Assembly: GCA_028693395.1 (NCBI GenBank)
Contig: JAQUVJ010000006.1
Location: 1 to 51,257 of the forward strand
Reading direction: 5' to 3'
DNA: 51,257 nucleotides
Origin: Candidatus Nanoarchaeia archaeon
GTDB lineage: Archaea > Nanobdellota > Nanobdellia > Woesearchaeales > JAQUVJ01
Part shown: positions 24,201-42,289 of the stretch, piece by piece
Position numbering within the stretch: the stretch's first letter is position 1
Layout: every line of letters starts with the position of its first letter
Program-made: the position numbers and the translations under genes
Notes under the pieces: model-generated
What the model was told of the DNA's origin: nothing
The model's database searches: none
What the model saw: only the letters and a program-made list of their open reading frames with translations

Positions 24201-24659
24201 TTAATGATTTCACAGGTTTCAGCAGATTTCAAATCAGCAATTGGAGGTAATGTTTTAACAGAAATACAATTAAACACAAAATCTGTTACAGATATCCAAA
24301 AAGCTGAAAGTAAATACGGAGATGAATACTCAAGAGCAATCATTAAACAATCAATAGGAATGGGAATGATTCAAAACCCACATTTCAATGATGGACATCC
24401 TTGGTTTATTCATTTTAGACCACCTTTACACTCTCCACACAAGATTTCAGATGAAGAATTAGAGACATATGATAAATTAGCAAGAGAATTAGATTCAATT
24501 GAAGAAAAAGTATTAACAATGAAAGAAAAAGGAGAAGATGTGTCTGAAATTGAATTAGAATTAAATTTATCCAAGAAAAAATTAAAAGAAGGTAAATTCA
24601 AGATGACTACAATATACATCGACAATTTAAAAGAATCATTAAAGAATTTTAATCTTTAA
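210..24659 (+). CDS. Giant surface protein with cytoplasmic HerA/DUF87-type ATPase domain (8149 aa)
   Basis: One uninterrupted frame encodes a protein of roughly 0.9 MDa. Residues 1-24 form a Sec signal peptide (basic start, hydrophobic core, ending VAQ). The ectodomain is rich in Asn, Ser and Thr with many N-x-S/T sequons. In order it has NTSVT repeats (about 45-74), propeller-like stretches (about 870-960 and 1630-1790), Cys modules (about 1290-1660), CxxC-type Cys clusters (about 3310-3430), around 14 Ig-like cassettes with D-x-x-P junctions (about 3535-4960), invasin-like Ig domains (about 5330-5560), another propeller-like stretch (about 6870-7050), a Ser/Gly linker (about 7480) and a CGNGVC...CPSDC motif from C7524. 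A membrane helix lies at about 7758-7780. The cytoplasmic domain has Walker A GSTGSGKS at 7836-7843 and Walker B FDE at 7964-7966, as in HerA. The ATPase class is secure; an adhesive or contact role is inferred. Its C-terminal 620 residues match the protein encoded from 27763. Confidence 0.9.
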   Translation: MKFYKMFLILIFTFIFLNTNIVAQNDSIINNTINETFFEELYISNTSVTNTSVTNTSVTNTSVTNTSVTNTNVTTILKENETIYLNKECIDNFDCGNFSCEYPKNIVYYYSFYDNQILNYYNDSKSCCVEICTEEILEEYTCEKDIIFEYKNDLIDAYLESLNLKKNNEILFYSNTKIPLNLFCVDIQDYFYESQIKVEKKVYDIEYNVLYTLIRLLSENKILSNQPLEYYLENFISNMTNDSKDILKIGSDITNNEGYSEFVYKMENKPLNNFYLTVSYKGNKSNMISSEIRKILFIVEKNNEIEKLKNIDINDSKKLNEDFDFKDVRIIDINNNKAISNFKDLESEENIYLSNDSIEYIEPLFIGNKVKINKIIFTENQKDFVEVPIESQNVKISKIENDSIEIIKQDDNDFFNQSIKDLLDKFKNETSLFIENIEKQKELENELSESSGILNIIKRYNLKKDIKIVEEIIENFKKEDVIDFIKSSIKEHSYETKKINLDENLKNDSMLVVSYELNAPELIESVKVENENIVKKILVYSNSTINYENIRSFTTIKNTHIDFIDFFYINENQEKISIKENEDYDLQFIDTDKDGLVDLISWIVPHLSFKEFEVISYKEDLRYNTSYSGNTFTIDMFIFEDTNISINTDSNSILNQPVKVFSGLDQDSMIERGYNIGSNLYKQITINDVSKNNYLRIEYKLSGTEDVLFNIQSLNNLLQVESKRKFVQESFSYDLESENNKIRFKTCSFDDFFMDCLKSETSVNNKGLELDFINNNQITKQITIPKNIDILNFLLNLDVNYEKSISEISYSPYSSSDVGFEIFEDQNKLVMYKYRTLEIYDLVSNSSIYSELKSSSIKKILKYSNYFYLIDSDGIYFYDLNGNLLASNNQVSIPQDFKIGKFENLISIYNSSSQNNILSLNNSEAVFDLSKINSFDDYGRCYVEFKVNNNNNLINSQLQVSLDSNIYNFNSLINLSSQKEIYYGSNNFYPYYFIDQGFSANLSVNKDLLNPSDCLLGLPIYKIGNPSTFNIKTINDDIVVNSNQIPEFNNNNILTANNFSVNKFSTSQELNVGYDNSFFNDAQNCYLEFNINKYNNPSSLSFELNNNIYNISLLNYNSNSIKELLGHSLENKLLSSNFYEIEINDIEDFSGSKCYLYSYINSYGDTNGNLFEINISNSQKTENVFSSTTLEGLEDYNKNFILLNSITETDFVNFKIDNLTEAHFTYDILKSGIYSFNNEVKSNQCFVSFEVCSKGSPGELSLIVSGQKKSSKEYTSLGNCDESDFKKVYYEVSCNDLKQDTDLILSCALDQCNSNNYYQIKSFKNLNYGKSKEFIRGSGPQVYNHEFNIEILANDSYYSTELITEFDCNLIENESIISYYFENNQDGGYGLIGSSKSTLDYNLYENDILKTEGIKFKIYTNKSLEKDKIIEYIDCNDLKNDNEIRFLENSQNSYANILGDNSNPFLKINKYNNEIYTYFKLSCDNLFMNNFELNFSNNDEENKYLVLFDYETSGVKINSNPINYGADFKIKTNNTKNYQKISYELDCNLLDTSSNLKLSCPTCDDNSYYNVIMDEDEPSINFYGIQSQGNDNILIKDLSNNFYLLDASLNNLKNYLGFSSIQYELEDIDSSSGDELLILDSSGFKLYDNKLELKNSITEMYNNKQFILDQNYIYILTGNNQIQKYNKTTFENVANFSINSEYNIKKIKQGFFRGNSGFFISYLAIDNYLGFFDNSFNEIEKINVDILGDFYSYSNSNKIFFLSDKLKLVDFGKSDVNLSINGDLIKTYIMDSEILINETYSGSFISNISNFLGTNCINDWCTIDFEIESTNNLIIKDFEIKFDYKLYDKILLEEAEYKWSKTDYVSEDEELFFEAYPLNYLYSEMPVLINILYHTFFSEPYSQYDIYGRLLFELSKCNVNSRTMYLETCNSQFYLNNQNRKTDYIWYNMSNKVKPFSIETFNGQEGSMNYVGKIIKRITSYNQEVFTNVKLNIELENESLYEGKRNFYIKYNETNKIKIEEIQNCSIGFEEKIFNIDGIDYKFKLCDKIENNSYFVEIIQPILNYSNAFLSNMTYALYYENNLAPEVIDFNVNVTQEYYGNEIGFNASIMDLELDNISIKLQFNRQVFGDLGWTTIKEYNFSNPLGLLNISNEDIFYNLSSNLIEESNDGNVRFRIIVNDRNATNYKHDEWTNSSEIIVKVIKHNLSINVNFDSKKYLYNIEVYDENIGDLISKPQIVSLYNNNDLYNSITLVNGNGSFNINSTFFGIFDPKIIIESSNEFTYYEKEFEDFNVVRRLDLRVESDTDLIIGQENNIKISIKDYDNQSLVIENQSELEGFILMISKVGNASNYQLVNIPYNITTGLAQTNFNLSCLDSGLYSISINSMVGTIFTNSSYNFVDLSSDFYKYLKLKLNLSKTIVRYQDSYGEGILLKNEDEIEVKVGNRYYLTITNLNDTIENCDNYQGDLSSFYWNIITSDSESKINQKNIEQYISAESSGNINLIFNNSDTNRYQIIDSFQTSLKLSSYIKLIMDLPSQLNRSLNSINPNLDINVEIVTDEGLKINESPIKDNYNLLECNFYIKKNNQEYEILGQSSVDDNGECSLSKTMDCSFIPEEYNIYVNISNISLLENTSFGLDMDEINKDFVLKDQNLNLTIEGINEEYFWGEEIRLNQIDFKDSCNSFNDRISPKLLIRDLDTTSSFDFYISEDSSYIISDQIYGNTNLSFTLNAPYYNFTTSEKIPINVSRYYKIKSLTGPYYINLGNNQYSCSISIIDSYNSRQDFRTSKENISVKFYLNNNESDYVISQTNNLGVATATLNIQNSGMNKIYCKIEDNSTKMLYIYDNVSSIKTFNSVIADSLIIDDLFANNREYSYSSTVADSCRNFIATSKDEFNELTVFRQDVPYKLNEVGEDLHYYDEPNAVYIGANVKVLNVETMQPEVIDNVTLYLNISKNGVFYKQLSCKVDLDKFNSNQHINYTRSPNEIVANYCDDYYTNYSCIIKWEMDSSMNVGSYNLSVYAYLNGVQSPVHYLDKTVDVYGYLISSINQSTKDYLTQKTFTNSTVKLNAIIFDDSGLNLMNHPNLTIQWRYAIDENSFWNIGQGDGFEWNLSLQPAQDYRYYDMDTYKGSASTVWLYSYAPYYVNTDYYINGSTKPYETIKFKKYDEVYRMELTKYRPYHYLYQFVAKQNIGASFYSLPGQTKLEYDKDTGDLDIYCRPIWVKSDGTNNSISLSYNMAINCLNCNESGNNESLSVPILNVDGIYLAKRTFNWSKEGDNKEYNFTCEFVNNSIYYSVGSKTQQYKIYSYLGSGEGNCNNDNFCNITMGESCGGCPSDCDIDIWMTSLNNTLGESAGLFYKFPLGYWNYNRTIWNNSAGQINQFENFTYRTEEVGMDYSCGCNFDGVCNPTYENALTCEDCTSSSTVYATGVGENGIFEIRKKVNDERDHYLKSTEEVYLNLYMSYYELGTKPNRLELLGTENSFNQTFTITVVDSKIKIERDQLFFTIPSTTNLTINLYHDVEGQKFSLNSSEDIRVIIDDDIPTVDSFNIIGGLGDNSNVFGSLKSTFGIEVNVNETPITIEKVEIDIGNGYNNLTFDSARELYEKESIITNQTGSNVPVTLRIIDQAGNVYLNNISYYQIDNIPPQITNYFVEYKGIISSFQKNEIDNIVICDGCKINVSFDAIDTPQVLLDSTSAKINNNIAFLLGGSYRYENISLSGDASKPITLNINDLFGNINQTIFNIKIDTGLPVINSFVANSTILKSHDMVLISYNVQEGASTYVTNLDTVIISNSTHVFYEKNNINTLSDIDSFVFEINKTETLTLTVKDVAGNIITSQNLNLVIDDTKPGFINYPTNNSWIINNNSKSIDLSFTIYEFNLNISSVKYKIDSGELQTPILVSSNSPNINFEIPIVQSEGIENTNYKITIVATDLANNQNQTELNYKIDTKPPILSSVFPENYTTNQANFNVEVNYTENQLNKIKLNTNTFTGCTNGTSSCSILFTTSTTDRADSFTIEVEDLAGNKVQQTINYKKDTMAPQVSILEPAWNSYLRGSFLMNFSIDDVGDEFDSYILKINGIEKDTYKGIEGNFNFLIDTTLYPSNQNNISIIANDSLNQIASNNMTYIFDNIKPEINQYYINDSIVKTNQSVTIGLNLSDNILLKTLKCNDIIQKDNINSNTLNFINSSFKITSNQINCIVIDYSGNSEEVVINYVLDDIMPYYSIKTNITKIDNNYYSRSDQNIDFIVNISDDDGLTGGIKYAILSRLSNIYPFSDFSGSDSSEIQKIMSKKLSDFDCNIDGDCDIFFEISDEADNSLMTFITRIVDNTPPSISSGSFVDNYINSSQYVNLSFTLQETNFYNMTINDEIVEKTIDNTYNYYKLSSLVPGNSNESLGKKITVKVFDKAFNYMEYQFNYTQEDTLPQISVYLNKYLNPNDQYRINANVTDTPSNNVHNVSYLNNLFTKTESNSWISNFLKFNFSQSNYYNITIKSSDAASNINEVKYEIYFDKDKPTINSIQFSNEYNISSTLKPINITASFDDNFVDNEKILSKVYLLKNEVTEVDITDDFNQTTKVLKKELSMSYLNCQPNQNCYFKLKISDLAGNNETSSRLSVYFDNVAPLIDLTSFQIDDLTKVENNYYMKTSSSHNISFKLIGDEDNSSIKYFKLNHSGNQYQLEYKNLRWRLDNINIQNQNFIFDIRDLADLDNLDKSSKTFTQIKLDDTNPTLINFSAKKESEAVFINNGTHYFNSNSDYFFSALVNDNIQPNQTLNVSLNYTQVVNFIPKPANNGVYEIFNTKMSQLGFATDFNGYQNITILTKDYAGNYNITKIPVYIDNTNPIIDRNSFVLGSSTAIFNSDQSPLGFSILNTTFPDANVTFEINANDFSGIKKIEGEIYQFTNTSNNHQFEFEFEDGKYKYIFQAIEYLSAPIEGVFILKIKAYDNVYNYIEENFSFAYAIEPPVVSMYEFSQEHIETNKEFNFTAIQAIDNTIAINKFRFIVTYNGTEEIFLPTHMKTRTGEFVPFTDFILDSYARIGTPITHFKFNYTPKYNGEYEIKYNMTNVAEVPSVDELNNNSLFISTGKINIDEFIVDINFDKCNNINCYYNQANDTIVLNNITKYDLSNFSINMTYENDANVTMYQLSMDTLMSTGVEVNESQKEIGTLLSKSNQKISLNYLIDNKKIPSTNVEEFNIKFKWYNPDKTSVDIIKTFKVFINNSYFYEIIGNNSEYNIETNEEFEIATLRLDNIGNSQLTNIKIDYNKEHEDKLNVSVLTKSINLPRLSSKNLSINITPKEVGIYNISFNVTYLGKVNVINVTINTKSLSRIIVQNSSYETINRTNKEYNLTCVVQDNVTNNNISNYNVSLRWLEGAIANLISQNKLETNESGVAVFKINISEIPVGNNTFFCEIEDNDRYEANPEYSSANKTINFLGNIREIEINRIVNSEKIYWSDYNTYNYTKMRVTVKDENLDPIINSNVTFKSNFSTGIFSEYFSCITNSLGQCDYDFNPSINQSGLYLFNVSAKALNYNLNYSNISIYVSGGIHIVLDSPIEKQNLTYNQSYNFSIRVLDENNTEILNPLSNSDILWKIYNPSNDSSFILNNSSLNFTWKVNDSAILGLNKINITVNNSEEEDNKLFEIGFIKDSITMLWKLNNTISRDEIDGYDNFINLIMNIGDYSDPINNSIVKLLFKNNNFQITQNTNEVGFVNFEINNSVNNFKDIFKLGNEQVDVEVSKENYVTKKFINLFNLLIYGYIEPKWVSPIESKYLNEINTGFFNLDLRLEEYTNKNLLNNSYEFKLYEYYPAVLPFYNVTLENNFNNIDNISEFNVSPGNHVYELDLDLKDINSYEYFFDFDDDKLNVTLEFRYSNINSSSIMKVLSQLTNFSLSNKNINKIYMYINNSLSEDSLVKINKFNIYSTEYNKIVPYGYTHILGLNDYNSLDVSMSYNKYNRPVSFYLNKAQIENEIEAINIYSNIPSDNNFTFSKNISYNCYNDNCLNLTLNNYSKGNPSFNYVNIVKSFENSLNLSEYEYIYIPIKYDNESLSNFNRMYVELQLETDLGIYYTSSLEEYSINEYYKDGWYLFGLNISSNSNGFIEYFGNKNMNKVTRMTISLYEIFEDKTNSSILIDSPILVDTDIKFVNGTISLPYYPVDYVDVYMNLSIEDKDHFIIYNESKTDNLFKIINAGITQDDGMVNLPEIGSEGGEEELQTTGISVESFELNKLDLDYYVVKNTSGLLSQIEITNLLSNEQNITLDTSKSNVIYTALGENITTISLYPGQKGIVDIFYNISNKSQNEYKEPSALIIRSSENEKQVLELNMKTLELYTNLTNPISNNEESKYSNLKYQDIIELKLNTHFNGSFLNITDNVEYSIYLNNNFSQECLIKEIGASTDLFSNILINCTLPRNIENILINNISVYSKIKDNFEDFETSGYKISDSINSIRYKDIRKPNINNVDIQYFNDTRINVSYNLSDNSKINKVYYQILNYADTNNTNIVYNTSIVNNTIKDEDFIYFELNKSQSLYDLELKLSNINASNLSIKINNEEFEKYLGNLSNNIKFYHNSEILDKIIFDSREELFYLLVPDYSTKINFSLNIRPIKENILLSNFNKYITDNYLLLSSRFEEISYLYKNEDVFGQNESKEPIITFNQRFDSLIENQDKIILINDNGIFELDVSEENLINLNLENYYNYTINFSTINAQNITVNNFTTYNSNMLNNFNFSNLIFNSSILTSGLNNFSPIRINNTFQNISNTSIIKINVNKTISNKDSLVFSINLSNQTKFNMTLKYNNCSYVTYFELGFENINKILDYKLDLISFRNKCNINTNQISINSIEMMLEKTVNKVTIDRFFTKNNLIKSPIIENISIPLNYQNYSMKSIETSLVDDLVFIINNKNGINFNNSELLTYNLTSEEFGMLKFNFSFYHIKKIIKYKDNYLMLDSARNLIYETKLDQTNVFELVNMFGQNVLYEPVDIYNIDDEFFYIVEYSANKISKYRYVSNKLFEIESNEITRPTNIINYSNNINLLTYNDIIGLNSSLERNYTFEFENEQYPINFVLDIDNDKSILKQRFNQYNIYPEYEINYEFKELKEINTYNYSLKNTIEIDNVRYFTIPVALQKSSLGLVEITTNSIHESIFDLHKIRDEIISIAYNDVREIVPINISFELDEEIKMNKFNISSKPIIKTEDVLIVASENILKTLTINTSNLSNGDYLLNTYVIDNSNNVITNNKIFDVNNRINLINPISVEDSTINTKFELSISTTKENLDNKLFSDEINNSDNSTFNKTISNRKLNLNVNLTKDILFNNSIKTNISLEFKNITLNVVNETAEEILKIKDVDKEKIIQAPNGTNPYIFLGLSLHANFSFDKSTFGFNYNESFEKLKSIGSTPQEDRLRVYTCQYYDESLCLQSDWKMVSEYEIDKVNKIIKANTTHTSSWLVLEQIPAGDDGKTDLDKAIECAGIGGTWNSVTKICYISPKDDSSSGGSSGSSSGGSIGSSSGGATSQDLNGLLEQLAGLNLSNIYSYSCGNGVCEEFETIENCPSDCLLSDYNAYLDVSDNILLINSSNLFKLKLKNNLNKDLNVTLRIVGDLSEIVYNNSNIVNLKANEEINYTINIKELNETKFINGLIILESKNKETRLPLTFEILDLFEYTFRKSSKEITILNRKINLNETIEFKLFLKSSIYSPSKQAEFEIYIKSPNSTDIIKRINQTKLIEFNKEILFNISNEGISEGKYILYLEEKASKQIINTNIEISKPIISQKTLLILIYIFSGLFGIVIITIAGIKINKYKKSKIVFIKPSSKVPRNLPDNFWMGKIAQTQEKAYFDPDKLTTHTLVAGSTGSGKSVTASIFAEECLEHQIPVIIFDPTAQWTGFVKPCRDEVVLKTYSQFGLSEDDSRSYRGLIYNVENENIEINFDKYINPGEVTVFNLSKLDTKQYNLATEKIIQQLFKYGFEETPHLRALIVFDEVHRLLDQYGGQGGYHSLEKAAREFRKWGLGLLMISQVSADFKSAIGGNVLTEIQLNTKSVTDIQKAESKYGDEYSRAIIKQSIGMGMIQNPHFNDGHPWFIHFRPPLHSPHKISDEELETYDKLARELDSIEEKVLTMKEKGEDVSEIELELNLSKKKLKEGKFKMTTIYIDNLKESLKNFNL
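342..431 (+). repeat. 15-bp tandem repeat, six copies, coding for Asn-Thr-Ser-Val-Thr
   Basis: Five nearly identical 15-bp units encode NTSVT and a sixth, diverged unit encodes NTNVT. They lie just after the signal peptide of the giant protein. Each unit carries an N-T-S or N-T-N triplet, and the N-T-S ones are potential N-glycosylation sequons. Because the unit is a multiple of three, copy-number change would keep the frame, so length may vary between strains. Confidence 0.9.
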
Positions 24660-24690
24660 TTTTTACTTTTTATTTTTTTTATTTTTAATA
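24655..24690 (+). terminator. Oligo-T terminator region after the giant gene
   Basis: Several runs of five to eight T begin directly at the stop codon on the coding strand. Archaeal transcription ends at such T-tracts without a hairpin. The spacer then turns A-rich up to the next gene. Confidence 0.5.
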
Positions 24691-24914
24691 CATTTATTAA
24701 ATAAAAGAATTAAAGAAATGAAAAACAATAAAACAATAAAAAATTATAAAACATAAAAATAATAAAAATAATAAGAATAATAAAAAAATAAAAATCATAA
24801 AAATAATCAAAATAGTAAAAAAATCAATTTAAGATAATAATTTATTTTAAAAGTGACAAAATAATAAAAAGAAATATAACAAAATAATAATAAAGGCAAT
24901 TTAAGGTGTTAAAA
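24660..24914. other. Spacer between the giant gene and the downstream operon
   Basis: The first about 40 bp are T-rich and the rest is A-rich low-complexity sequence of AATAAA-like words. No hairpin and no convincing TATA box stand out, so it is unclear whether the coiled-coil gene has its own promoter or depends on read-through from the giant gene. A GGTG ribosome-binding element ends the spacer at 24905-24908. Confidence 0.6.
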
Positions 24915-27032
24915 TTGGCAATGAAAGAAGAATTTAAAAAACTGGAAGATTATATTAAAGAAAAAAAAGGATACGAATTAATTCACAAACAATACTTAGA
25001 ATTAAAAGAGATCGTATATGCACTTCCAAGAACAGATGAACTTAGAGATAAATATATTAATTTATTAACAGATTTAATGTTAAAAAGAAGTTCACAAGGA
25101 GGACTTGTAGATTATTTTTTCTCTATAAATAAAATAAAAGAACCTGTAAAAGAAAAAATAGAAAATAATTCACAAGATAATTCACAAGATGATTTAAAAG
25201 ATAATATTGAAAAACAATCTAAGAATGATTCAGAAAAAGATTTAGAAAATAAAGAAAATAAAGATTCAAAAAAAATAATTAAATCAGAAAATAAATTAGA
25301 AACACCTATATTAAATCCTATAAAAAACATTCAAGACATAAATAAAAATGAAAATAAAAATTCAAATATATCATTAACAAAAGAAGAATTAAAACCACCA
25401 ATAAATATACCTGAATTTAATAGTAATTTTAATGATAATATCAACAATTTTAATAATAATAATAATAATGAGAATATCAGTGAAGATTATGATGTAAAAA
25501 ATCAAGAAAATTTATCTAAGATTAATAAATCAAATTTAAAAGATAAATTGAAAATATTTGGAAAAAATAAAAAGGAAATAAAAGATAATGCAAGTAATAA
25601 TAATCAAGAAATTTCTGTTGATTTTAATGAAGAATCAAGTTTTAATGAAAATTTTAATAAAAATAATATGAATGATTTTGATAATACTAATGAAATTGAT
25701 TTTAAAGAAAATTTTAAAGGAAATGAAGCTTTAAATGAAAATAAATTTTCACAAAATAATTTTGAAAGAAATAATTTTAAAAATATTTCACAAAATAAAA
25801 TAAAAGAACCTTTAAAACAAAAAGTAGAAAATAATTTACTATATAATAATAAAAATATAGAAGAAGAAAATTCTAAAAAAATAGAAAATTCATTTTCAAA
25901 AACTATTTCCCAAAATTCAAAATTCGATATAAAAGACATAAGAGAAGAAATTAAAAAAATAATAAAAGAAGAATTTAAAGATGTTGAAGATAGATTAAAT
26001 GATTATTCAATGAAAATTGAAAAAAATGAAGGAAAATGGGAAAGACAACAAGGAGTAAATGATTCAATGCAAGAAACAATAGGAAATTTAAGAGAAGATA
26101 TTGGATCAATGAGAAGTACAGTAAGTTTGTCTGAAAAAAGTGTAGATAAAATGTCTATGACATTTGAAAAAATGAAAGATCTTTTAGAAGATATAACTCC
26201 AGAAAAAATAAAAAAGAGATTTGAAAAATTAGACCAGAAAAATGAAATGCAAGATGCTAATATAGAAAAAATTGAAGCTTTGCATCAAAAAGTTTCAAAA
26301 GATTTGAAAGAATATCTTGAAATTATGTCTCATATTAAGAGTTTTAATACATTATTCGAAACATTAAAAAATATAAAAGAAGAACATAAAAAAATTTTAT
26401 CAACAAAAGAAGATGTTTCAAGAATAGCAGCAAAAGTTGAAGAAATCTTTAAAGAAGTTAATAATAAATTAATTGTTTTAGATGAAGATAATAACGAACT
26501 TGCTTCAATGAAAGAAGTTGTAAAAGATGTAATGAATGAAGTTACTCAATTAGAAGTAAAAATAAATAATTTAGTTTCTGTTGACAAATTCGATAATGAG
26601 ATTGTAAAGATAAAAAATAATACAGATAATATTACAAAAATAGACAATCATTTATTAGAATTATCAAAAGATGTTTTAAAATTAGAAAAATATGAAAATA
26701 ATTTTAATAATAAGTTAAAACAAATTTCAAATGATATTTATGAATTTAAAATATCAAAAGTAAGAAAAGTTGATAATATTCAATTTCAAGATACAAAGAA
26801 AGAAACAATTGAAAAAGTAAAAGATGATAAAAGAGATTACATTAATACATTATTAAATGAATTAAATTTGAATATTAGAAGAAAAGATGTTGAAGATGCT
26901 GTTGAATTATCAAAAGAAATTTCAAAAATTATTAAAGAAAATGCAAATCAAAAAGATTTAAAAGAAGAAATTGATAAATTCAGTAAATTGTACAATGGTT
27001 TATTGGAATTGATAAATCAAAAGAAAAAGTGA
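24915..27032 (+). CDS. Cytoplasmic coiled-coil protein of the surface locus
   Basis: About 705 residues, with no signal peptide or membrane helix, so probably cytoplasmic. An N-terminal helical domain (about 1-75) is followed by a long low-complexity linker rich in Asn, Lys and Glu (about 75-330). Then comes an extended heptad-like coiled coil (about 340-620) and a short helical C-terminal domain (about 640-705). I do not recognise the family with confidence. The coiled-coil style recalls accessory proteins of archaeal pilus or archaellum motors (ArlC/D/E), but no diagnostic motif was seen. It is the first gene of a tight operon, only 4 nt before the next gene. Start choice: GGTG at 24905-24908 lies 6 nt before TTG 24915. 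ATG 24921 and GTG 24906 are alternatives. A scaffold or adaptor role for the two ATPases is an inference from position. Confidence 0.75.
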   Translation: MAMKEEFKKLEDYIKEKKGYELIHKQYLELKEIVYALPRTDELRDKYINLLTDLMLKRSSQGGLVDYFFSINKIKEPVKEKIENNSQDNSQDDLKDNIEKQSKNDSEKDLENKENKDSKKIIKSENKLETPILNPIKNIQDINKNENKNSNISLTKEELKPPINIPEFNSNFNDNINNFNNNNNNENISEDYDVKNQENLSKINKSNLKDKLKIFGKNKKEIKDNASNNNQEISVDFNEESSFNENFNKNNMNDFDNTNEIDFKENFKGNEALNENKFSQNNFERNNFKNISQNKIKEPLKQKVENNLLYNNKNIEEENSKKIENSFSKTISQNSKFDIKDIREEIKKIIKEEFKDVEDRLNDYSMKIEKNEGKWERQQGVNDSMQETIGNLREDIGSMRSTVSLSEKSVDKMSMTFEKMKDLLEDITPEKIKKRFEKLDQKNEMQDANIEKIEALHQKVSKDLKEYLEIMSHIKSFNTLFETLKNIKEEHKKILSTKEDVSRIAAKVEEIFKEVNNKLIVLDEDNNELASMKEVVKDVMNEVTQLEVKINNLVSVDKFDNEIVKIKNNTDNITKIDNHLLELSKDVLKLEKYENNFNNKLKQISNDIYEFKISKVRKVDNIQFQDTKKETIEKVKDDKRDYINTLLNELNLNIRRKDVEDAVELSKEISKIIKENANQKDLKEEIDKFSKLYNGLLELINQKKK

Positions 27033-27036
27033 TATT

Positions 27037-27744
27037 ATGATGGATTATTTGTTAGAAATTTTATTAGTTTTATTACTTGTAGTAATATATTATTTTAAAA
27101 GTAATTATTTTAAGATAGGGAAGTTTAAGAATATAATAGGTTTTTCTTCAGGTTTAATTATAGGTATAATTTTTATCTATTTTTTAAATTTAATGATTAA
27201 AAATTATTCAGTTTTAGAGCATTTTAATTTAACATTGTTATTATGGGGATTTGTTTTGATTTTTGTTTTAAAACAATACGTATTAACAGAAATAAATAAA
27301 TATTGGGAAATTGATTTAATGTTAAACAAAATAAAATTTATTGAATATGGTTTGTCAAGTATTTTTTTGGTTTTCATTATATTTATAACAACATATTTAT
27401 CAAAACAATTAAATTTTAGAATATCATTTGCATTTATGGCTTTCTTAGTATTTTATACAATATTACTAGAAATAAATTTTTCAAAGATATTGGAAAAAGC
27501 ATATTTCAAACCACAATATAAATATGTTATTGCATTAACTATGATATTTTCATTAATTTCATGCATACTTGTAAAAATGTTTATACCAAATTTCTTAGAT
27601 TATATGTTCCCATTTATTATAGGTTTTTTTATTAATTCAATGTTTGATACAATTATTGATAAGAATAAAACATATAATATAATTTGGTTTGTTAGTGGAA
27701 TTGTTGTAGCAAATTTATTATTAATTTTAGAATTTATTTTTTAA
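27037..27744 (+). CDS. Polytopic membrane protein, paralogue of the one at 46950
   Basis: 235 residues with about seven hydrophobic segments and short loops. No catalytic motif was seen. The layout, with a G-F-x-S/A-G-L segment near residue 35 and a C-terminal FPFIIGFxxNSMFD segment, faintly recalls ZIP-type transporters, but the metal-binding His and Glu residues of that family are missing, so I do not assign that function. Blocks such as HFNLTLL-WGFVLIF-LKQY and FIEY-LS-IFLVF are nearly identical in the protein encoded from 46950. The gene starts 4 nt after the coiled-coil gene, with GTG five nt before the ATG. Its place in the operon suggests a membrane partner of the HerA-type ATPases. 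Confidence 0.8.
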   Translation: MMDYLLEILLVLLLVVIYYFKSNYFKIGKFKNIIGFSSGLIIGIIFIYFLNLMIKNYSVLEHFNLTLLLWGFVLIFVLKQYVLTEINKYWEIDLMLNKIKFIEYGLSSIFLVFIIFITTYLSKQLNFRISFAFMAFLVFYTILLEINFSKILEKAYFKPQYKYVIALTMIFSLISCILVKMFIPNFLDYMFPFIIGFFINSMFDTIIDKNKTYNIIWFVSGIVVANLLLILEFIF

Positions 27745-27762
27745 AAGAAAATGGTGTTAATT

Positions 27763-29838
27763 TTGAATTTAATAAAAAGTAAAGAAAATAAAAATGGAAA
27801 TTTAATTAGTTTATTTGGAAGGCCATTTTTATCTATTTTTATTTTGTTTTTTTCTTTTGTATTTTTTATTGTTTTATTAAGTTCAAATACTGTTGCACAA
27901 TCTTTTTTTTGTGGAGATTTTAAATGTCAATTTAATGAAAGTTTGTATTGTGATGTTGATTGTGGAACAAAAGTTTCTGCAATTTTAGATAGTAGTTATT
28001 ATAATTTTCCTTATGCTTATGATTCAAAGATGACATTACAATTGAGAAACCAATTGAATTATGATGTATTATTAAGATTTTATACTGATTTTTCAAATAT
28101 AGAATTACCTGAAACATTGATTTTAAGAGCTAATGAAGAATATTTTTTAGATATAAAAATGAATACATTGGTAGATTTAGGTTTTCATAGTGGAGATTTT
28201 ATGATTGAAGGAAATTTGTATAATCCAAATTTCTATATTCATGATATAATTTCAAAATACAATGTTTCAAATGTTTCAATTCAATTAACAAATGAATCTG
28301 TTAATTCAATCAATTCAATAATTTTTAGAAAAACTCTTCCTTTTAATGTGAAAATCTATTCTGTAAATGAAACAGAAATTGTTTATTACAAAATGAATTT
28401 AAATCATGATAGAGTAAAGAAAACAGATAAAATATTTTTTTCAATAGAAACAAATGATAAAACAAATCAATCTTTAAGTTTTTCTTTGAAGAACAATAAA
28501 ACAAATTTAGAATTAAATTATACAGTGGAAGATAATTTATATATTATAGATTTAAATAAATATAATGTGTCAGAAGGAGAATATAGAGTTGTTTTGAATT
28601 ATAATTATAACAACTATAATCTTGAATCAACAGAATCAATTGAGGTATATCTTTCTTTAATTAGTCAAAATGTATTATATTTAATTTTAAGAATATTTAT
28701 TGTATTTTTACTTGTATTTATTGTATTTATTGCTATATTAAAAATTAAAAAATATAAATTATCAAAACAAACTTTTATTCATCCTAATTTTTCAAAGATT
28801 CCAGATAATAAAGAAACTAATTTTTTAATGGGAAAAATTCCTGAAACAACAAAAAAAGCATATTTTGATCCAGATAAATTAACAACTCATACGCTTGTTG
28901 CTGGATCAACTGGTTCAGGTAAGTCTGTAACTGCATCAATATTTGTTGAAGAATGTCTTTTACATAATATTCCAGTAATTATTTTTGACCCAACAGCTCA
29001 ATGGACAGGTTTTGTAAAAGCTTGTAGAGATGAAGTTGTTTTAAAAACATATTCTAATTTTGGATTAACTGAAGATGATGCAAGATCATTTAAAGGATTA
29101 ATTTATAATGTAAATGACGAAAATATTGTTGTTGATTTCAAGAAATATATAAATCCAGGAGAAGTAACTGTTTTTAATCTTGCAAAATTAAATACAGAAC
29201 AATATAATTTAGCAACTGAAAATATTATTAAACAATTATTTCAGTTTGGTTTTGATGAAACACCACATTTAAGAGTTTTGATTGTCTTTGATGAAGTTCA
29301 TAGGTTATTAGATCAATATGGTGGACAAGGAGGTTATCATTCATTAGAAAAAGCAGCAAGAGAATTTAGAAAATGGGGTTTAGGTCTTTTAATGATATCT
29401 CAGGTTTCCTCAGATTTTAAAGAAGCAATTGGAGGTAATGTTTTAACAGAAATACAATTAAACACAAAATCAATTGAAGATATAAAAAAGATGGAAAGCA
29501 AATATGGAAAAGAATATTCAAAGGCAATAATTAGATTAAAAATAGGAATGGGTATAATCCAAAATCCACATTTTAATTTAGGTAATCCTTGGTTTATTCA
29601 TTTTAGACCACCTTTACATTCTCCACATAAAATTTCAGATGATGAATTGATAATGTATGATACATATGCTAGACAAATTGATGAAATGGAAGCAAGATTA
29701 ATTAAATTAAAAGAAACTAAGGATGTTTCAGATGTTGAATTAGAAATCAATTTAGCTAAAAAGAAATTAAAAGAAGGAAAATTCAAGATGGTTAAAATAT
29801 ATTTAGAAACTCTTGAATCATCAATAAATTCATTATAA
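27763..29838 (+). CDS. Membrane-anchored HerA/DUF87-type ATPase with short ectodomain
   Basis: About 691 residues. An N-terminal hydrophobic segment ends in VAQ and acts as signal peptide or anchor. A CGDFKC...CDVDC motif and two beta-rich, Ig-like domains follow. Counted from the ATG at 27751, a membrane helix lies at about 306-330 and the cytoplasmic ATPase has Walker A GSTGSGKS at 385-392 and Walker B FDE at 513-515. A charged helical tail ends the protein. The whole architecture matches the last 620 residues of the giant protein, and the ATPase halves are highly similar at protein level. GGTG at 27753-27756 sits 6 nt before TTG 27763, the preferred start; ATG 27751 is the alternative. It may form mixed hexamers with the giant's ATPase, as HerA proteins are hexameric; this is inferred. 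Confidence 0.88.
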   Translation: MNLIKSKENKNGNLISLFGRPFLSIFILFFSFVFFIVLLSSNTVAQSFFCGDFKCQFNESLYCDVDCGTKVSAILDSSYYNFPYAYDSKMTLQLRNQLNYDVLLRFYTDFSNIELPETLILRANEEYFLDIKMNTLVDLGFHSGDFMIEGNLYNPNFYIHDIISKYNVSNVSIQLTNESVNSINSIIFRKTLPFNVKIYSVNETEIVYYKMNLNHDRVKKTDKIFFSIETNDKTNQSLSFSLKNNKTNLELNYTVEDNLYIIDLNKYNVSEGEYRVVLNYNYNNYNLESTESIEVYLSLISQNVLYLILRIFIVFLLVFIVFIAILKIKKYKLSKQTFIHPNFSKIPDNKETNFLMGKIPETTKKAYFDPDKLTTHTLVAGSTGSGKSVTASIFVEECLLHNIPVIIFDPTAQWTGFVKACRDEVVLKTYSNFGLTEDDARSFKGLIYNVNDENIVVDFKKYINPGEVTVFNLAKLNTEQYNLATENIIKQLFQFGFDETPHLRVLIVFDEVHRLLDQYGGQGGYHSLEKAAREFRKWGLGLLMISQVSSDFKEAIGGNVLTEIQLNTKSIEDIKKMESKYGKEYSKAIIRLKIGMGIIQNPHFNLGNPWFIHFRPPLHSPHKISDDELIMYDTYARQIDEMEARLIKLKETKDVSDVELEINLAKKKLKEGKFKMVKIYLETLESSINSL

Positions 29839-29855
29839 TTTGAATAGTGGGGAAT

Positions 29856-32800
29856 ATGAAATTTAAAAAGATTAAATTAGGAATAAATAAAATTATTATT
29901 ATGTTTTTATTTTTATTAGTTTTAATTCCTTTTTCTTTTTCTTTTAATTTTGAATGTTTAGATGTTTCAAATTTTGATATAGATAATTCAACAAGTTTTA
30001 GTGTTTTTGAAAATACATCTTTTAAGAATGAAAATCTAAAATTATTTATTAAACCATTTTTTGAGCAAAATTATTCATCTTTTGATTTTTATAATATAAA
30101 AACATTAAATGAAAGTACTTTTAAAATACCAACAAATTATTATTATTATATTAATAATTCAATATATTCTTCAAGTAATTTTTGCATACATAAAGAAAGT
30201 TATAAAAGAAATGATTCTATTTTAACGATTTTAGAAAAATTCATCACATATGATGATGCATCTATATACAATATTGCAGGAGATGTATATTATAAAGATT
30301 CAGTTATAAATTTAATGGGAATAATTAACTATTTAGATTTATACGAAGTAACTTTGAATTCTTCTTATTTAGATATTGCAATAGAATTGGAAAATTCAAT
30401 AGAAGAAAATTTTGGAATAGATTCACATATTGACATATTTGTAGATGGAAAATATAATATAAAAGCTAAAACGTCTAATTATTATTCTTGGGAGTATATT
30501 GACAGAGCAAAAATAGAAGTTTCTGAAATTCATGCATTTTTAATTAAATCTTTTTTAAAATTATATGAAGATACATATAATAATACTTATTTACAAAAAG
30601 CAATAAATGCAGGAAATTCTATAAATAATGATTGTAATTTTACTAGTGGTGATTTTAATTGTAATCATCCAATTTCTCAAGAATTATTGGTTAATTCATA
30701 TTATGATTTGTATACAAAAACTCATAATCAAACATATTTTGATATTTTTAAAAATTTAACAAAGTTTATGTATGAACAAATGAATTTTCAAAAGGATTCA
30801 ATAGATTATAATTATTCATTTTATATTGCAAGTAAATTGTGTAATATGTTTAATTTTAATTGTTCAAGATCAGATTCTCAACAAATATTAGATTCTTTAG
30901 ACAATCAAATACCTGTAAGTTTTTTTCAAATATTTCAAAAGATATCATATTTAAATGACAAATTTAAATTTGATGGAGATATTGAAAATATAAGAGAATC
31001 ATTTAGAATCTTTCAATATTTAAATTTTTCAAATTATTATGATGAAAGTGTTGATTTTGGAGTAAATCCATTTAATAATGCATATGGCTTTGAACAAAAT
31101 TTAATATCAATGTCTTTAATGAAGATATATGAAAATTATGATTCAAGTGATATCGTTTATGATTATGAGATTATAGGTGAGTTAGAATATAAAAAAAATA
31201 TAACAATTTTAGTAAAATCATTTTTTTCTAATGATTTATCAATGAAATATTATAAATTAGATAGTCCAGAAAGTGTATTTATTGCTAATCATTTACAAAA
31301 TCAAGATTATCATTATTTCACAATTGATGAAAGTAAAATTAGTCCAGGTATAATTGTTTTACAATTTAAAGATAATTTTTTGGAAGTTGAAACTAATAAT
31401 TTATCTTATAGATTTTCTTATGGAATAAAAAAAGCAAATATTAATGATGCAATATCAGCATTCAAACAAGATGATAAAATAACAGGTCTAACTTGTAACT
31501 TATTTGATGTTTCTACATACGAAAAGTGTAAAATAGAAAATAACAAAGGAAATGCAATAAAAATGCTTTATAAAATGGGAAACTATTTTTTTAATACTAG
31601 TTCTTATTATGTTTCATATTTAAATAATTTTTATGTGAGTTTTGTTGATGTTGAAAATGCATATAATACTTGTGATTATAATAGAAATGATTTTATTTGT
31701 CAAGATGTATCTAAATATGATTACATAAATTATTTTAACACAAATAAAGTTCTTAGATTTGTAGATTTAGTTGATGGATTATTAAATTATTATTCATTAA
31801 ATGGATCGAATAATATAAAAATTAATATTTATAAATATTTAAATAATAATTTTGAAAATGATTGTGATTTAAAATCAAATTTTTTATGTAATGTTAGTTT
31901 TGAAGATAATTCAAAAATTGTAAATTTATTTTATAAGATTTTTGAAAAAACAGGTGATTATTTTTATTTAGAAAAAGCAAATTTAGGTTATAATCAATTA
32001 AAGCTAAATAATTCTAATTGGAATTCTAGTGCAAATTTTGCAATACTTGAAAATAATTTAAGAAAATATTATAGTAATATTAGTATAACAAATTTAGAGC
32101 AAAGTTATGAAGAACAAATAAATTATTGTAATAAAAATAATTGTGATTATTATTACTATTATGATTCTTTTAATTTTTTATATAATTTTTATCTTCAATC
32201 AAATCAACCATTGGTTTTAAAAAAGGTCTCCACATATTTTCAAAGTTTGGAAAATATAAATTTTGAATGTAATCCAATGGCTAATAAATATAATTGTATT
32301 GATGCATCACAAAGTTTTAAAGCTTTTGATACATTAAGAATTGCAAGTTATGTCGATTATATTGCAGGTGATTTAAATTTATCATTAAAATTACATTATA
32401 ATGATAGTGATATTAAAAATTATTCAGATATTGTTAATTTAACTTGTGAATATTATAATACAGATGTTGTTGCAACTGATGTAATCGTTTTTTCAAGATT
32501 GTCTAAATTATCTTCTGGTTCTTTACTAAATGTTTATATTAATAATAATACAGAAGTTGTTAATAATACAAGATATTCTTATATGATTCCTGTATTTAAT
32601 ACAAATGAATATGTGAATGTAACCTTTGAAGTTAATTTATCATATCCATTAGAAAATATATTTGAATGTGTTGCTGAAAATTTCACAGTAAATAAGACAA
32701 TAATTGTAGAAAATTTTACTGAAGAATTAGATGTAACATTTAAAGATAAAAATTATTTTTATAATATAAATGATTCATATATTTTTTTAAATTCAAGTGA

Positions 32801-35800
32801 GAATACAACAAATTTAACAATAAATGATTCATTTATCAATATTTCATTTTTATTAAAAAATCCATTTTATTTTTCAATTGATAATTTAATTTTAAATATA
32901 AGTACTATAAAGAATATTTCAAATGTATCTTTAAAAAATACTAAAGAATTTGATGAAGAAATCGATTATTCTTTTGATTATGAAAACAAAACAATGAATA
33001 TATCAAAATTATTATCAAATAAAATTGTAAATATTACATTCAGTTTTAACAAAACAAATATTTTAGATGATGAATCTATAATTTTTAATATAACAGAAAG
33101 ATTTGGTTCATTAACAAATTTTAATACTTCAATTTTAATATACAATGAATCAAATTTATTCTTCGAAAAGATTCCAAAAGATGTTAATTATTATTTAGAT
33201 ATTAGTAATAATGATTTTATTTTTTATAATATAAATAATTATTCAATCGAAAAATTAAATTTTTATATAGAAAGAAATAATAATTTTGAGATAGTAGATC
33301 ATTACATTTTGAACAATAGTAAATATATTGAATATAATAATACAATAAATAGTTTAAAAAATAAAACAAATGATTTATATGCAGAATTAATTAATTTAGA
33401 TAATTTAACAATTCAATTTGAAAGTTCAATTTTAGATTCAGATATTTTATTTTTTAATTTCTCAGGAAATTTTTCAAGAAATAATATAACATTATTAAGT
33501 TATATGAATTATTCATTTGGGAAAATTGATTTTATTTTTGATTATGATTTAGAAAATTCAATAAATGAAAATTGGATATTATTAATTAATGTAACAAATA
33601 ATACAAATGAAATTAATATATATAATTCAACATTAAATAAAACAATTTCAATAATTGAATCATTAAATGAATCTATTTTTGAAGATTTATCTAATCTAAG
33701 TTTTAATATATATCTAAAAAGAAATTTTAATTATTATAATTTATCAAAAGAAGTTATAAATAATTCAAATATTATTTTAAATTTTTCAAATAATCAAACA
33801 ATTTATAATCTAGATTTTAATTTATCATCATCTCCTAATAATCATACATATTTTAATGATTCAATTATTATTGAATATGATTTTTTAACAAATTTTTACT
33901 CAAATTCATCTTTAATCATTTATAAAAATATAAGTAATTCATTTGTAGAATTATGTAGTCAAGAAATAAATAATATAACAGGAATAATAAGATGCAATAA
34001 TGATAGTTTTTCAAAAGATTTTAAAATATTTTTTAATCAATCAAATATAAATATAACAAGAGAAGAAAATATATCTAATTATTATTATAATTCAATTAAT
34101 TATAACAAAGATACTTTTGTTTATTCAGATGAAAATGCATCACAAATAAAATTATTTATAGAAAAACAAAATGATAGCATTATTTTTGTAAATGATAGCA
34201 CTATTTATTTTAATTTTTCATCAAAAAATGAAACTAATTTTTTAATATATTTTAATGAAGATATAAACAATAATTGTTCATTTGTTGATACAAAATTGGA
34301 ATCAAAATGTAATTTTAATTTATCTTATAATGTTTATAAAAATGGATTTAATATAACTTTTTTATTTTTAAATGATTCAAATTATACATTAAATAATGTT
34401 TTTTTAAATCAAAATATAACTCATTTAATTTATTCTCAAATAAATTTAAAATCTTTTAAAACGAATTATAATTATGAATTTAAAGAATTTGTAAAATCAA
34501 ATATAACATTTGATTCGATAAATTTAAAGAATTATGAAGAAGAAAGAAGAATTTTTAATAATTCACAAAAAATAAGCTATTTACCATCTAAGATTTTTTA
34601 TGAAATAGGCCCAATATTAGAAAATGAGAATTTTACTTTTAGATTGGTTAGTTTTCCATCAACTTTAATTGAAAATTTTGATATTAATTTTTTTTATTTT
34701 ATAAATGATTCATATTATATAAATACAACAAAAAGTGATTATTATTTGTTAAATAAAACATTTAATTACACAAATGATTTTAACATTTTAGATATAAATA
34801 CATTTGTTCCTTCATTAAAATATTTAAATGAGGAATTTGAAGTAAATATATCAATTAATAATTTAATTAACAATGATTTAAATAATTCAAAAGTAACAAT
34901 AAATACAAATGCAAATAATATAACATGTAATAAAAATTTATCAAATTCTAATTTATTTTCAAAAGAATCTTTTGATATAGTTTGTATTTTAAATCATAGT
35001 TCAAATATTGTTTTTGAAGTTGTTTTTAATAATACAAAATTTAATTATTCAAAAACTTTTAATTATAATTTATTATCAAGAATTAAATTACCATCAGATT
35101 CAGATGGAGGTGCGTCAGGAAGCACGTCAGGAGGGTCTTCAGGAGGATTTACACCACCAAAATCAAATCAAACAAATATAAGCAATCAAACAAATCAATC
35201 AACAATATCTGAAATAATAGATATGATTTTAAGAGAAATAAATGAATTTAGCTCAAAAGAAATTATTAAATTATACGAAAAAAAAGATTTAGAAAATCTA
35301 TCAATAAATTATAAAGATAAAATAATAGAAGAAATAAAAAAAGAAGGAAATATTAGAATTAATTTCTTTGAAATTATATTTATAACATTAATTTCAGCAA
35401 TGATTATTGGACAATTAGCAAAAGGATTTTTAGGAGTAACATCTGAATTTTCTATTGAATCAATTCAGAAAATTATTTACAATTCGATATCAGAATTATT
35501 AGTTAAACATGTTGATAATCCAGATTTATTTTTTAAAAGATATTTAGGAATAAAAAAGAAGATTGCTAATATTGAAAAGAAAGGATTAAAAATAAATCCA
35601 ACATTAATAAATTCATCAAAGTTTAAATTATTAAAATATGAATTAATGAAAGCAACAGATTATATTAAATATTTTAATTATAAAAATGAGATGAGAATAA
35701 AATATCAAGACAATATAAAAGAAGCATTTGATGTAATGCAAGAAAATATTAGTAAATTTTCCAATATGAACGCAAATATAAATGAAAAGAAATTTTTAAT

Positions 35801-36014
35801 AGATGAAGCCAAAAAAGAATATATTGAGAAAATAAGACATGAAAAGATATATTATAAATCAAATATAAAAGGATATATAAATGATTTAGTTCAAAGAATT
35901 GAAAATAGAACATTAAAAGATTTTTTTAAAACAGAATATAATAAAATAGATGGAGTAACAATAAAGAATATTGATAAATATATTAATGAAGCAAATAAGC
36001 ATTATGATTTTTAA
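29856..36014 (+). CDS. Large surface protein with helical-toroid-like repeats, one C-terminal membrane helix and cytoplasmic tail
   Basis: About 2052 residues. A signal peptide (about 1-31) is followed by two stretches (about 60-450 and 530-860) of helix pairs of the kind L-x-x-LYE-x-T-x-x-x-YL-x-A. These are typical of alpha/alpha toroids such as six-hairpin glycosidases or sugar epimerases; no active-site residues could be assigned. Long Asn-rich beta segments with many sequons come next, then a Ser/Gly linker at about 1750-1766, a membrane helix at about 1838-1860 and a basic helical cytoplasmic tail of about 190 residues. The linker uses G/C-ending codons (GCG, ACG, GGG) that are rare nearby. 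It closes the operon that starts at 24915. GTGGGG lies before ATG 29856; the in-frame GTG at 29847 is the likely ribosome-binding site rather than the start. A glycan-binding or glycan-processing role is conjecture. Confidence 0.85.
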   Translation: MKFKKIKLGINKIIIMFLFLLVLIPFSFSFNFECLDVSNFDIDNSTSFSVFENTSFKNENLKLFIKPFFEQNYSSFDFYNIKTLNESTFKIPTNYYYYINNSIYSSSNFCIHKESYKRNDSILTILEKFITYDDASIYNIAGDVYYKDSVINLMGIINYLDLYEVTLNSSYLDIAIELENSIEENFGIDSHIDIFVDGKYNIKAKTSNYYSWEYIDRAKIEVSEIHAFLIKSFLKLYEDTYNNTYLQKAINAGNSINNDCNFTSGDFNCNHPISQELLVNSYYDLYTKTHNQTYFDIFKNLTKFMYEQMNFQKDSIDYNYSFYIASKLCNMFNFNCSRSDSQQILDSLDNQIPVSFFQIFQKISYLNDKFKFDGDIENIRESFRIFQYLNFSNYYDESVDFGVNPFNNAYGFEQNLISMSLMKIYENYDSSDIVYDYEIIGELEYKKNITILVKSFFSNDLSMKYYKLDSPESVFIANHLQNQDYHYFTIDESKISPGIIVLQFKDNFLEVETNNLSYRFSYGIKKANINDAISAFKQDDKITGLTCNLFDVSTYEKCKIENNKGNAIKMLYKMGNYFFNTSSYYVSYLNNFYVSFVDVENAYNTCDYNRNDFICQDVSKYDYINYFNTNKVLRFVDLVDGLLNYYSLNGSNNIKINIYKYLNNNFENDCDLKSNFLCNVSFEDNSKIVNLFYKIFEKTGDYFYLEKANLGYNQLKLNNSNWNSSANFAILENNLRKYYSNISITNLEQSYEEQINYCNKNNCDYYYYYDSFNFLYNFYLQSNQPLVLKKVSTYFQSLENINFECNPMANKYNCIDASQSFKAFDTLRIASYVDYIAGDLNLSLKLHYNDSDIKNYSDIVNLTCEYYNTDVVATDVIVFSRLSKLSSGSLLNVYINNNTEVVNNTRYSYMIPVFNTNEYVNVTFEVNLSYPLENIFECVAENFTVNKTIIVENFTEELDVTFKDKNYFYNINDSYIFLNSSENTTNLTINDSFINISFLLKNPFYFSIDNLILNISTIKNISNVSLKNTKEFDEEIDYSFDYENKTMNISKLLSNKIVNITFSFNKTNILDDESIIFNITERFGSLTNFNTSILIYNESNLFFEKIPKDVNYYLDISNNDFIFYNINNYSIEKLNFYIERNNNFEIVDHYILNNSKYIEYNNTINSLKNKTNDLYAELINLDNLTIQFESSILDSDILFFNFSGNFSRNNITLLSYMNYSFGKIDFIFDYDLENSINENWILLINVTNNTNEINIYNSTLNKTISIIESLNESIFEDLSNLSFNIYLKRNFNYYNLSKEVINNSNIILNFSNNQTIYNLDFNLSSSPNNHTYFNDSIIIEYDFLTNFYSNSSLIIYKNISNSFVELCSQEINNITGIIRCNNDSFSKDFKIFFNQSNINITREENISNYYYNSINYNKDTFVYSDENASQIKLFIEKQNDSIIFVNDSTIYFNFSSKNETNFLIYFNEDINNNCSFVDTKLESKCNFNLSYNVYKNGFNITFLFLNDSNYTLNNVFLNQNITHLIYSQINLKSFKTNYNYEFKEFVKSNITFDSINLKNYEEERRIFNNSQKISYLPSKIFYEIGPILENENFTFRLVSFPSTLIENFDINFFYFINDSYYINTTKSDYYLLNKTFNYTNDFNILDINTFVPSLKYLNEEFEVNISINNLINNDLNNSKVTINTNANNITCNKNLSNSNLFSKESFDIVCILNHSSNIVFEVVFNNTKFNYSKTFNYNLLSRIKLPSDSDGGASGSTSGGSSGGFTPPKSNQTNISNQTNQSTISEIIDMILREINEFSSKEIIKLYEKKDLENLSINYKDKIIEEIKKEGNIRINFFEIIFITLISAMIIGQLAKGFLGVTSEFSIESIQKIIYNSISELLVKHVDNPDLFFKRYLGIKKKIANIEKKGLKINPTLINSSKFKLLKYELMKATDYIKYFNYKNEMRIKYQDNIKEAFDVMQENISKFSNMNANINEKKFLIDEAKKEYIEKIRHEKIYYKSNIKGYINDLVQRIENRTLKDFFKTEYNKIDGVTIKNIDKYINEANKHYDF

Positions 36015-36405
36015 TTGAGTATTTTTTTATTTTTGTTTTTTATTTTTTGATTTATTTTATATTTTTTATTAATTTTCATTTTTCTTTTTTATCTTTTATA
36101 TTTTTCATATTTTGTTTTTTAATGTTTTTCATTATTCTTTTAATATTCTTTTTTATTTTCTTTTTTATTTTTTTGTTTAATTTTTAGCTTTTTATTTCTA
36201 TATTTTATTATTAATATAATAATGATAATAATAGTAATAATAATAATTTATTTAATTTTTATTTTTATTTTTGTTTTTTATTTTTCTTTTTCATATTTAT
36301 TCTTTAATCATTTAAATTTATATATTATTTAATGAAATTTAAAAAAATCTTTTATTATCATAATAATAAAAATCTTTATAAAGTCAAATTAATATATTTT
36401 TTAAA
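36015..36405. other. T-rich spacer with terminator tracts and ackA promoter
   Basis: Dense T-tracts follow the stop codon at 36014 and continue for about 180 bp, enough for archaeal oligo-T termination of the surface operon. An AT-only stretch with short AAT repeats follows. The last 35 bp hold the promoter of acetate kinase. No open frame of note and no RNA gene were seen. Confidence 0.6.
36374..36383 (+). promoter_or_regulatory. TATA box of acetate kinase (leaderless)
   Basis: CTTTATAAAG, itself palindromic, is centred about 27 bp before the ATG at 36406. This predicts a leaderless transcript. No GGTG element precedes the ATG. Confidence 0.6.
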
Positions 36406-42279: not shown

Positions 42280-42289
42280 TGGTGATAAA

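Follow-up and report, generated by a model that had tools for sequence, protein, structure and literature searches.

Organization of the locus

We analysed a 51,257-nucleotide stretch of DNA (hereafter the window), which is the entire contig C17 (JAQUVJ010000006.1) of a 1.12-Mb, 88% complete genome of a Candidatus Nanoarchaeia archaeon of the order Woesearchaeales (GCA_028693395.1). Its first part holds a locus that probably encodes an ATP-driven surface motor of DPANN archaea: a giant gene for an adhesin-like ATPase (the long motor), followed by a block of four genes for a coiled-coil protein, a seven-transmembrane (7TM) protein, a second, much smaller ATPase (the short motor) and a surface protein, called SURF here (Table 1). 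The original prediction of a four-gene, same-strand operon beside the giant gene was confirmed, as the open reading frames of 708, 235, 695 and 2055 residues are real, occupy positions 24906-36014 of the + strand and lie 4, 6 and 8 nt apart. The end of the block and its reading frames had been placed correctly, but the start given for it, position 24915, lies 9 nt inside the coiled-coil gene. Also as predicted, the five proteins represent every compartment. Chance reading frames are ruled out because the stop-free frames span hundreds to thousands of codons at a G+C content of 20%. Homologues were found for four of the five proteins.

The giant gene is separated from the coiled-coil gene by 246 nt. 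Archaeal terminators are oligo-T tracts, and the T content is 77% over 24660-24690 and 73% over 36015-36215, compared with 36% in the whole window. T-rich tracts at both borders suggest that the giant gene and the four-gene block may be separate transcripts. A scan for sigma-70-type promoters was uninformative, as it gave 165 sites against 146 expected and archaea use TATA/BRE elements. No known RNA elements were found in the window. Transmembrane (TM) segments and signal peptides were called throughout by hydropathy and inspection.

Table 1. Features of the locus and its surroundings (positions in the window)
Feature	Position	Strand	Remarks
Giant (long motor subunit)	210..24659	+	8149 aa; signal peptide, ~7700-aa ectodomain, TM, HerA-type ATPase
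C-terminal ~650 aa of the giant, matching the 695-aa ATPase protein	22692..24656	+	Cys-rich knob, beta-rich ectodomain, TM, ATPase
Spacer between giant and coiled-coil genes	24660..24905	+	T-rich just past the giant's stop (possible terminator), A-rich further on
Coiled-coil cytoplasmic protein	24906..27032	+	708 aa; GTG start, no TM, conserved IGxLR region
7TM protein	27037..27744	+	235 aa; 7 hydrophobic segments; lineage-specific
Short motor subunit	27751..29838	+	695 aa; signal peptide, ~250-aa ectodomain, TM, HerA-type ATPase, C-terminal helical hairpin
Walker A of short motor	28903..28926	+	GSTGSGKS
Walker B of short motor	29278..29307	+	LIVFDEVHRL, catalytic Asp-Glu
Surface protein SURF	29847..36014	+	2055 aa; GTG start, signal peptide
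T-rich stretch after the four-gene block	36015..36215	+	Possible terminator
Second 7TM protein, outside the operon	46950..47663	+	52% identical to 27037-27744

The two motors are paralogues of the HerA type

The 695-residue ATPase and the last ~650 residues of the giant can be aligned end to end (52% identity over 665 columns), with ATPase domains that are 76-77% identical and ectodomains that are about 30% identical. Common to both are a CG[DN]xxC...DC knob, a beta-rich ectodomain, a TM segment, the ATPase and a C-terminal helical hairpin, and Walker A, Walker B, the arginine finger and the sensor glutamine are intact in both. Judged from its sequence only, the giant would have a signal peptide, adhesion repeats outside the cell, a single TM segment and a cytosolic ATPase; its immunoglobulin (Ig)-like repeats are suggested by a Big_13 match below threshold and by inspection of the sequence.

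The short motor matches DUF87 (E=1e-11, above the Pfam cut-off), and the C-terminus of the giant is likewise a TM segment with a HerA-type ATPase. The solved proteins nearest to the motor by profile are HerA hexamers (4d2i, E=9e-16), its nearest NCBIfam equivalog is CedD (E=3e-9), and its Walker A, Walker B, arginine finger and sensor glutamine agree with the HerA clade of the FtsK-HerA superfamily. A family search found no T2SSE (PF00437) domain in the 695-residue ATPase; T2SSE-family ATPases are encoded elsewhere in the same genome. Within the FtsK-HerA superfamily, these comparisons group the motor with HerA and not with PilT/GspE, in agreement with the original prediction. A separate 670-residue frame on contig C9, which matches DUF87 better than the window motor does, is probably the canonical HerA of this genome.

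The ectodomains carried by the constant motor vary in length from 250 to over 15000 residues. Motor-bearing open frames of 15809 (G022:C41), 11928 (G022:C93), 9175 (G022:C97), 12056 (G332:C23), 8189 (G071:C2) and 8055 residues (G053:C4) are predicted from draft assemblies. The published protein-length record for cultivated archaea is 9409 residues (PMC10266531).

The motor is linked to the coiled-coil gene across the order and class

Among 288 genomes of the order, which are draft assemblies related to each other, the motor family was present in 78 and the coiled-coil family in 86, and 73 of the 78 motor genomes carried both (Fisher p=4e-48). Coiled-coil loci lay less than 6 kb from a motor in 65 of 98 cases, and in 64 of these the coiled-coil gene was downstream of the motor and on its strand. 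The profile for the coiled-coil family had been seeded from 24 motor loci; when the seed loci were removed, 41 of 74 coiled-coil loci still adjoined a motor. Other orders of the class have the motor family too, and in eight of the ten loci read there a coiled-coil gene stands behind the motor. Co-occurrence of the five families, which was expected if the genes form one system, thus held for the motor and the coiled-coil protein, extended to SURF in close relatives and failed for the 7TM protein.

Five genomes have partner genes and no counted motor. In these the motor is cut by a contig end, clearly so in G094, G005 and G063, and as judged by a short remnant only in G180 and G122. At five loci (L095, L097, L100, L101 and L103) the contig ends no more than 20-60 residues into the motor domain. 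If assembly collapsed near-identical copies of the motor, contigs would be expected to end inside motors. At least two motor genes were found in 22 of the 78 motor genomes and one elsewhere (contig breaks hide some copies). In three different families, a valyl-tRNA synthetase-like gene lies close to the motor (window 42251-44758, L065 and L078), and KaiC-family ATPase genes were seen near the motor or the coiled-coil gene at six loci (L042, L044, L049, L055, L059 and L077).

Long and short motors show two signs of joint action

A tree of 51 motor domains contains two regimes. In the window's clade, the long and short motor domains of one locus are sisters at five of five loci with 100% bootstrap support, being 75-90% identical within a locus and 50-66% between loci. 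The juxtamembrane ectodomains of the same pairs are 23-32% identical, as different within pairs as between genomes. Either the motor domains have been homogenised or the pairs arose repeatedly; the two domains appear to evolve in concert, a sign that two subunits work together. Recent gene conversion between the window motors is not supported, as their synonymous codon identity is about the codon-usage expectation (0.67).

In the other regime, long and short motors form separate old clades. Seven long motors (L044, L048, L053, L070, L071, L072 and L073) have lost the Walker B glutamate (DE to DG or DS) together with a nearby arginine and retain Walker A, the arginine finger and the sensor glutamine, whereas the short partners in the same genomes retain DE. 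On the tree this loss happened once, so it counts as a single observation, retained many times. A subunit that would bind ATP and supply a finger but be inactive, retained in seven genomes, is as expected in a mixed ring.

Surface proteins and the 7TM protein

Most of the order has an operon with the genes RHH, ECTO, motor, DUF5752-like protein and coiled-coil protein, in this sequence. RHH is a ribbon-helix-helix protein of ~90 residues whose RHH_1 match falls just below the cut-off; the match of the DUF5752-like protein to its family is also below the cut-off. ECTO (~1100 residues; signal peptide, TM segment and helical cytoplasmic tail) was found at E<1e-60 in 60 of the 78 motor genomes. 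Of 73 ECTO loci, 51 have a motor gene immediately downstream. Many genomes also contain a second ECTO-like family, a weaker one of about 850-1050 residues, that lies away from the motor (for example G006:C23, G148:C33 and G105:C19). At L049, L050, L052 and L045, a short motor and ECTO occur without the coiled-coil gene, flanked by an ArsR-type regulator and by secreted or membrane proteins of about 250, 308, 555, 397 and 367 residues with no family match.

No strong ECTO profile match was found in the window's clade (G000, G022, G210, G083 and G212). In its place, a SURF protein stands beside the operon in G000, in G210 and at both G022 loci (C41, and C97 on the other strand). SURF of the window has a helical region with cysteine motifs (residues ~146-943), an Asn/Ser-rich region, a TM segment near residue 1840 and a cytoplasmic helical tail of ~190 residues. 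Homology of the SURF proteins is indicated by a profile alignment spanning 733 columns (98% probability, E=2e-14; shuffled and unrelated controls below 1%), and among 500 open reading frames the motif C[DNSE]-x(n)-[DN][FYL]-x-C occurs at least three times in the four SURF proteins only. By the same comparison, a 2073-residue surface protein at L063 was rejected as a SURF homologue. Matches to GH76-type toroids (E 0.1-0.7) give a glycosidase lead only; the SURF homologue of G210 has Pfam matches to GH127/C5-epimerase (E 0.001-0.005).

The 7TM protein had been proposed as the membrane platform. We rejected it as a core component, since no close homologue was found in the other 287 genomes of the order and its five weak matches (E 2e-5 to 3e-4) all lie in genomes without a motor. 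Family searches gave no match, and its paralogue in the window is far from the operon (Table 1). By these comparisons the 7TM protein is lineage-specific.

Relation to SPEARE proteins

SPEARE proteins of Nanohaloarchaeota consist of a signal peptide, an Ig-rich ectodomain of up to 9409 residues, a TM segment and a VirB4/TraG-like ATPase, with another ATPase gene just downstream of the giant (PMC10266531). Proteomics by Hamm et al. 2019 detected SPEARE, and the same study described related cytosolic parts from Woesearchaeota (PMC6642349). The giants are a proposed means by which parasitic archaea hold on to their hosts. The locus shares with SPEARE the Sec signal, the giant and putatively Ig-rich ectodomain, the single TM segment near the C-terminus, the cytosolic ATPase of the HerA/VirB4 superfamily and the second ATPase downstream, which is separated from the giant by two genes in the window and directly adjacent to it in G022 and G210. 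It differs in that its second ATPase repeats the giant's motor in short form and is not a VirB4 with PF03135, in that the operon adds the coiled-coil and SURF genes, and in that the motor protein has only about 700-1700 residues in most of this order.

Judged by its architecture, the locus is best read as a SPEARE-type surface motor, whose kinship with the SPEARE ATPase domain is putative. The claim that no described system has this set of genes therefore has to be withdrawn for the giant adhesin-TM-ATPase fusion and the second ATPase downstream, which are already known from nanohaloarchaeal SPEARE (PMC6642349, PMC10266531). Within the openly accessible literature, the conserved operon, its partners, its spread and the two signs of joint motor subunits are new, and the papers covered do not name the partners. 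The operon may have been described earlier.

Proposed function and alternative explanations

We propose, with a probability of roughly 0.6, that this is a DPANN locus of the SPEARE kind, in which a membrane-anchored HerA-clade motor with adhesin arms moves a substrate at cell contacts. Two single-pass membrane proteins, one giant and adhesin-like and the other with a short ectodomain, would both end in the same cytoplasmic HerA-clade ATPase. The long and short ATPase domains would co-assemble in one ring under the membrane, probably hexameric and mixed, with the coiled-coil protein as its cytoplasmic partner. The outer part would be completed by a separately anchored surface protein, SURF here and ECTO in most relatives. 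The giant arms would contact a host or another cell, where ATP hydrolysis would drive substrate transfer through or past the ring; the substrate could be DNA or protein, moving in either direction. The role of a secretion or pilus motor, to which the original prediction had likened the locus, may be considered in the same conditional sense. We hold more tentatively, and at somewhat below even odds, that the locus represents a distinct ATP-driven surface machine, neither a type IV secretion system nor a pilus, in which a motor ring of mixed long and short HerA-clade subunits with its coiled-coil partner carries the adhesin arms, conserved in this DPANN class and used at cell contacts. This would include, in one clade, a mixed ring of inactive and active subunits.

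How DPANN archaea grip and exchange with other cells is a standing question on which the locus bears. Conservation of the motor, its partner genes and their order across the class makes of SPEARE, so far a single giant protein, a machine whose components can be defined and named, and the two-subunit signature predicts a mixed ring in which one kind of subunit is free to go catalytically dead.

Several points weigh against the SPEARE-type motor as proposed. No substrate, channel or effector was identified at the locus, and HerA-clade motors usually act on DNA, a poor fit with a pure adhesin. Kinship among the genomes means that the p-values overstate independence. A mixed ring is not needed everywhere, because most motor genomes yield one motor gene. 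Repeated domain duplication is an alternative to homogenisation of the pairs, and homogenisation of the window pair would not be recent, because its synonymous sites are near saturation. AlphaFold gave no usable structure from two-sequence alignments (mean predicted local distance difference test (pLDDT) score of 45 for the short motor and 46 for the 7TM protein).

Other functions were weighed against the same evidence. DNA uptake of the Ced kind (CedA/CedB/CedD), in which the HerA-clade pair would pull DNA from a host or neighbouring cell through a channel, perhaps the 7TM protein, is unlikely. The nearest solved relatives of the motor are indeed DNA-translocating HerA proteins and CedD is its best curated match, but at 36 bits it stays far below the curated cut-off of 600. 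CedB and CedD are two HerA-clade ATPases required for DNA import, CedD being membrane-anchored (PMC11868833); the Ced ATPases have no large ectodomain, let alone a giant one. No homologue of the channel protein CedA (CedA1/A2) is shown here. The 7TM protein, which would be the only channel candidate, does not accompany the motor in other genomes; it has no family match, and its structure model is poor. A need for imported DNA would fit DPANN genomes, in which nucleotide synthesis is often missing (PMC6642349, for nanohaloarchaea). Secretion of effectors into a host by a type IV system, proposed for the nanohaloarchaeal SPEARE proteins with the same architecture of a giant and a second ATPase (PMC10266531), seems improbable too. 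Membership in this system fails because the VirB4 N-terminal domain PF03135 was absent from all 16 system-bearing genomes searched. In SPEARE, a second ATPase with PF03135 is a feature of two strains (PMC10266531) and may not extend to every locus. Here the second ATPase is no VirB4 but a shortened version of the motor that the giant itself carries, and in sequence the motor is nearer to HerA than to VirB4. The operon proteins gave no VirB6-, VirB8- or VirB10-like match in family libraries (a genome-wide search was not made).

A mechanical device for adhesion or signalling, in which ATP hydrolysis alters the pose of the adhesin arms and nothing is translocated, would agree with the wide range of ectodomain lengths on a constant motor and with the lack of a conserved channel; we consider it still less probable, since HerA/FtsK-clade motors of known function translocate DNA or protein. 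Type IV pili, the archaellum and type II secretion systems also combine an ATPase with membrane partners, but theirs is of the PilT-GspE type and the motor here is HerA-type. A HerA-type anti-phage defence or DNA-repair locus is very improbable. The motor shares its ATPase core with the HerA helicase of HerA-NurA, a hexamer-forming family by sequence (4d2i), and has weak matches to defence HerA and MADS mad8 models. Canonical HerA, by contrast, is a soluble protein that has a HAS barrel and is paired with NurA, whereas the motor has a signal peptide, a TM anchor and a large ectodomain, no nuclease or other defence partner is encoded at the locus, and the frame on C9 is the better candidate for canonical HerA. 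As the matches were only weak and generic, a defence system was rejected.

Genomic surroundings

The genes downstream of the operon look like housekeeping genes by reading (acetate kinase, Bud32-like kinase, valyl-tRNA synthetase, PCNA and a ROK-type kinase), so the locus lies outside any obvious mobile element. Relatives of the motor were not found in viral contigs, and plasmids gave generic HerA only; a viral or plasmid origin was rejected. Positions 38149-39171 and 39494-40504 encode paralogous 340-residue proteins (35% identical) for which a family search gave no match. In each, a KSQ/KS motif precedes a single hydrophobic segment at the N-terminus, which gives the pair a pilin- or FlaG-like look.

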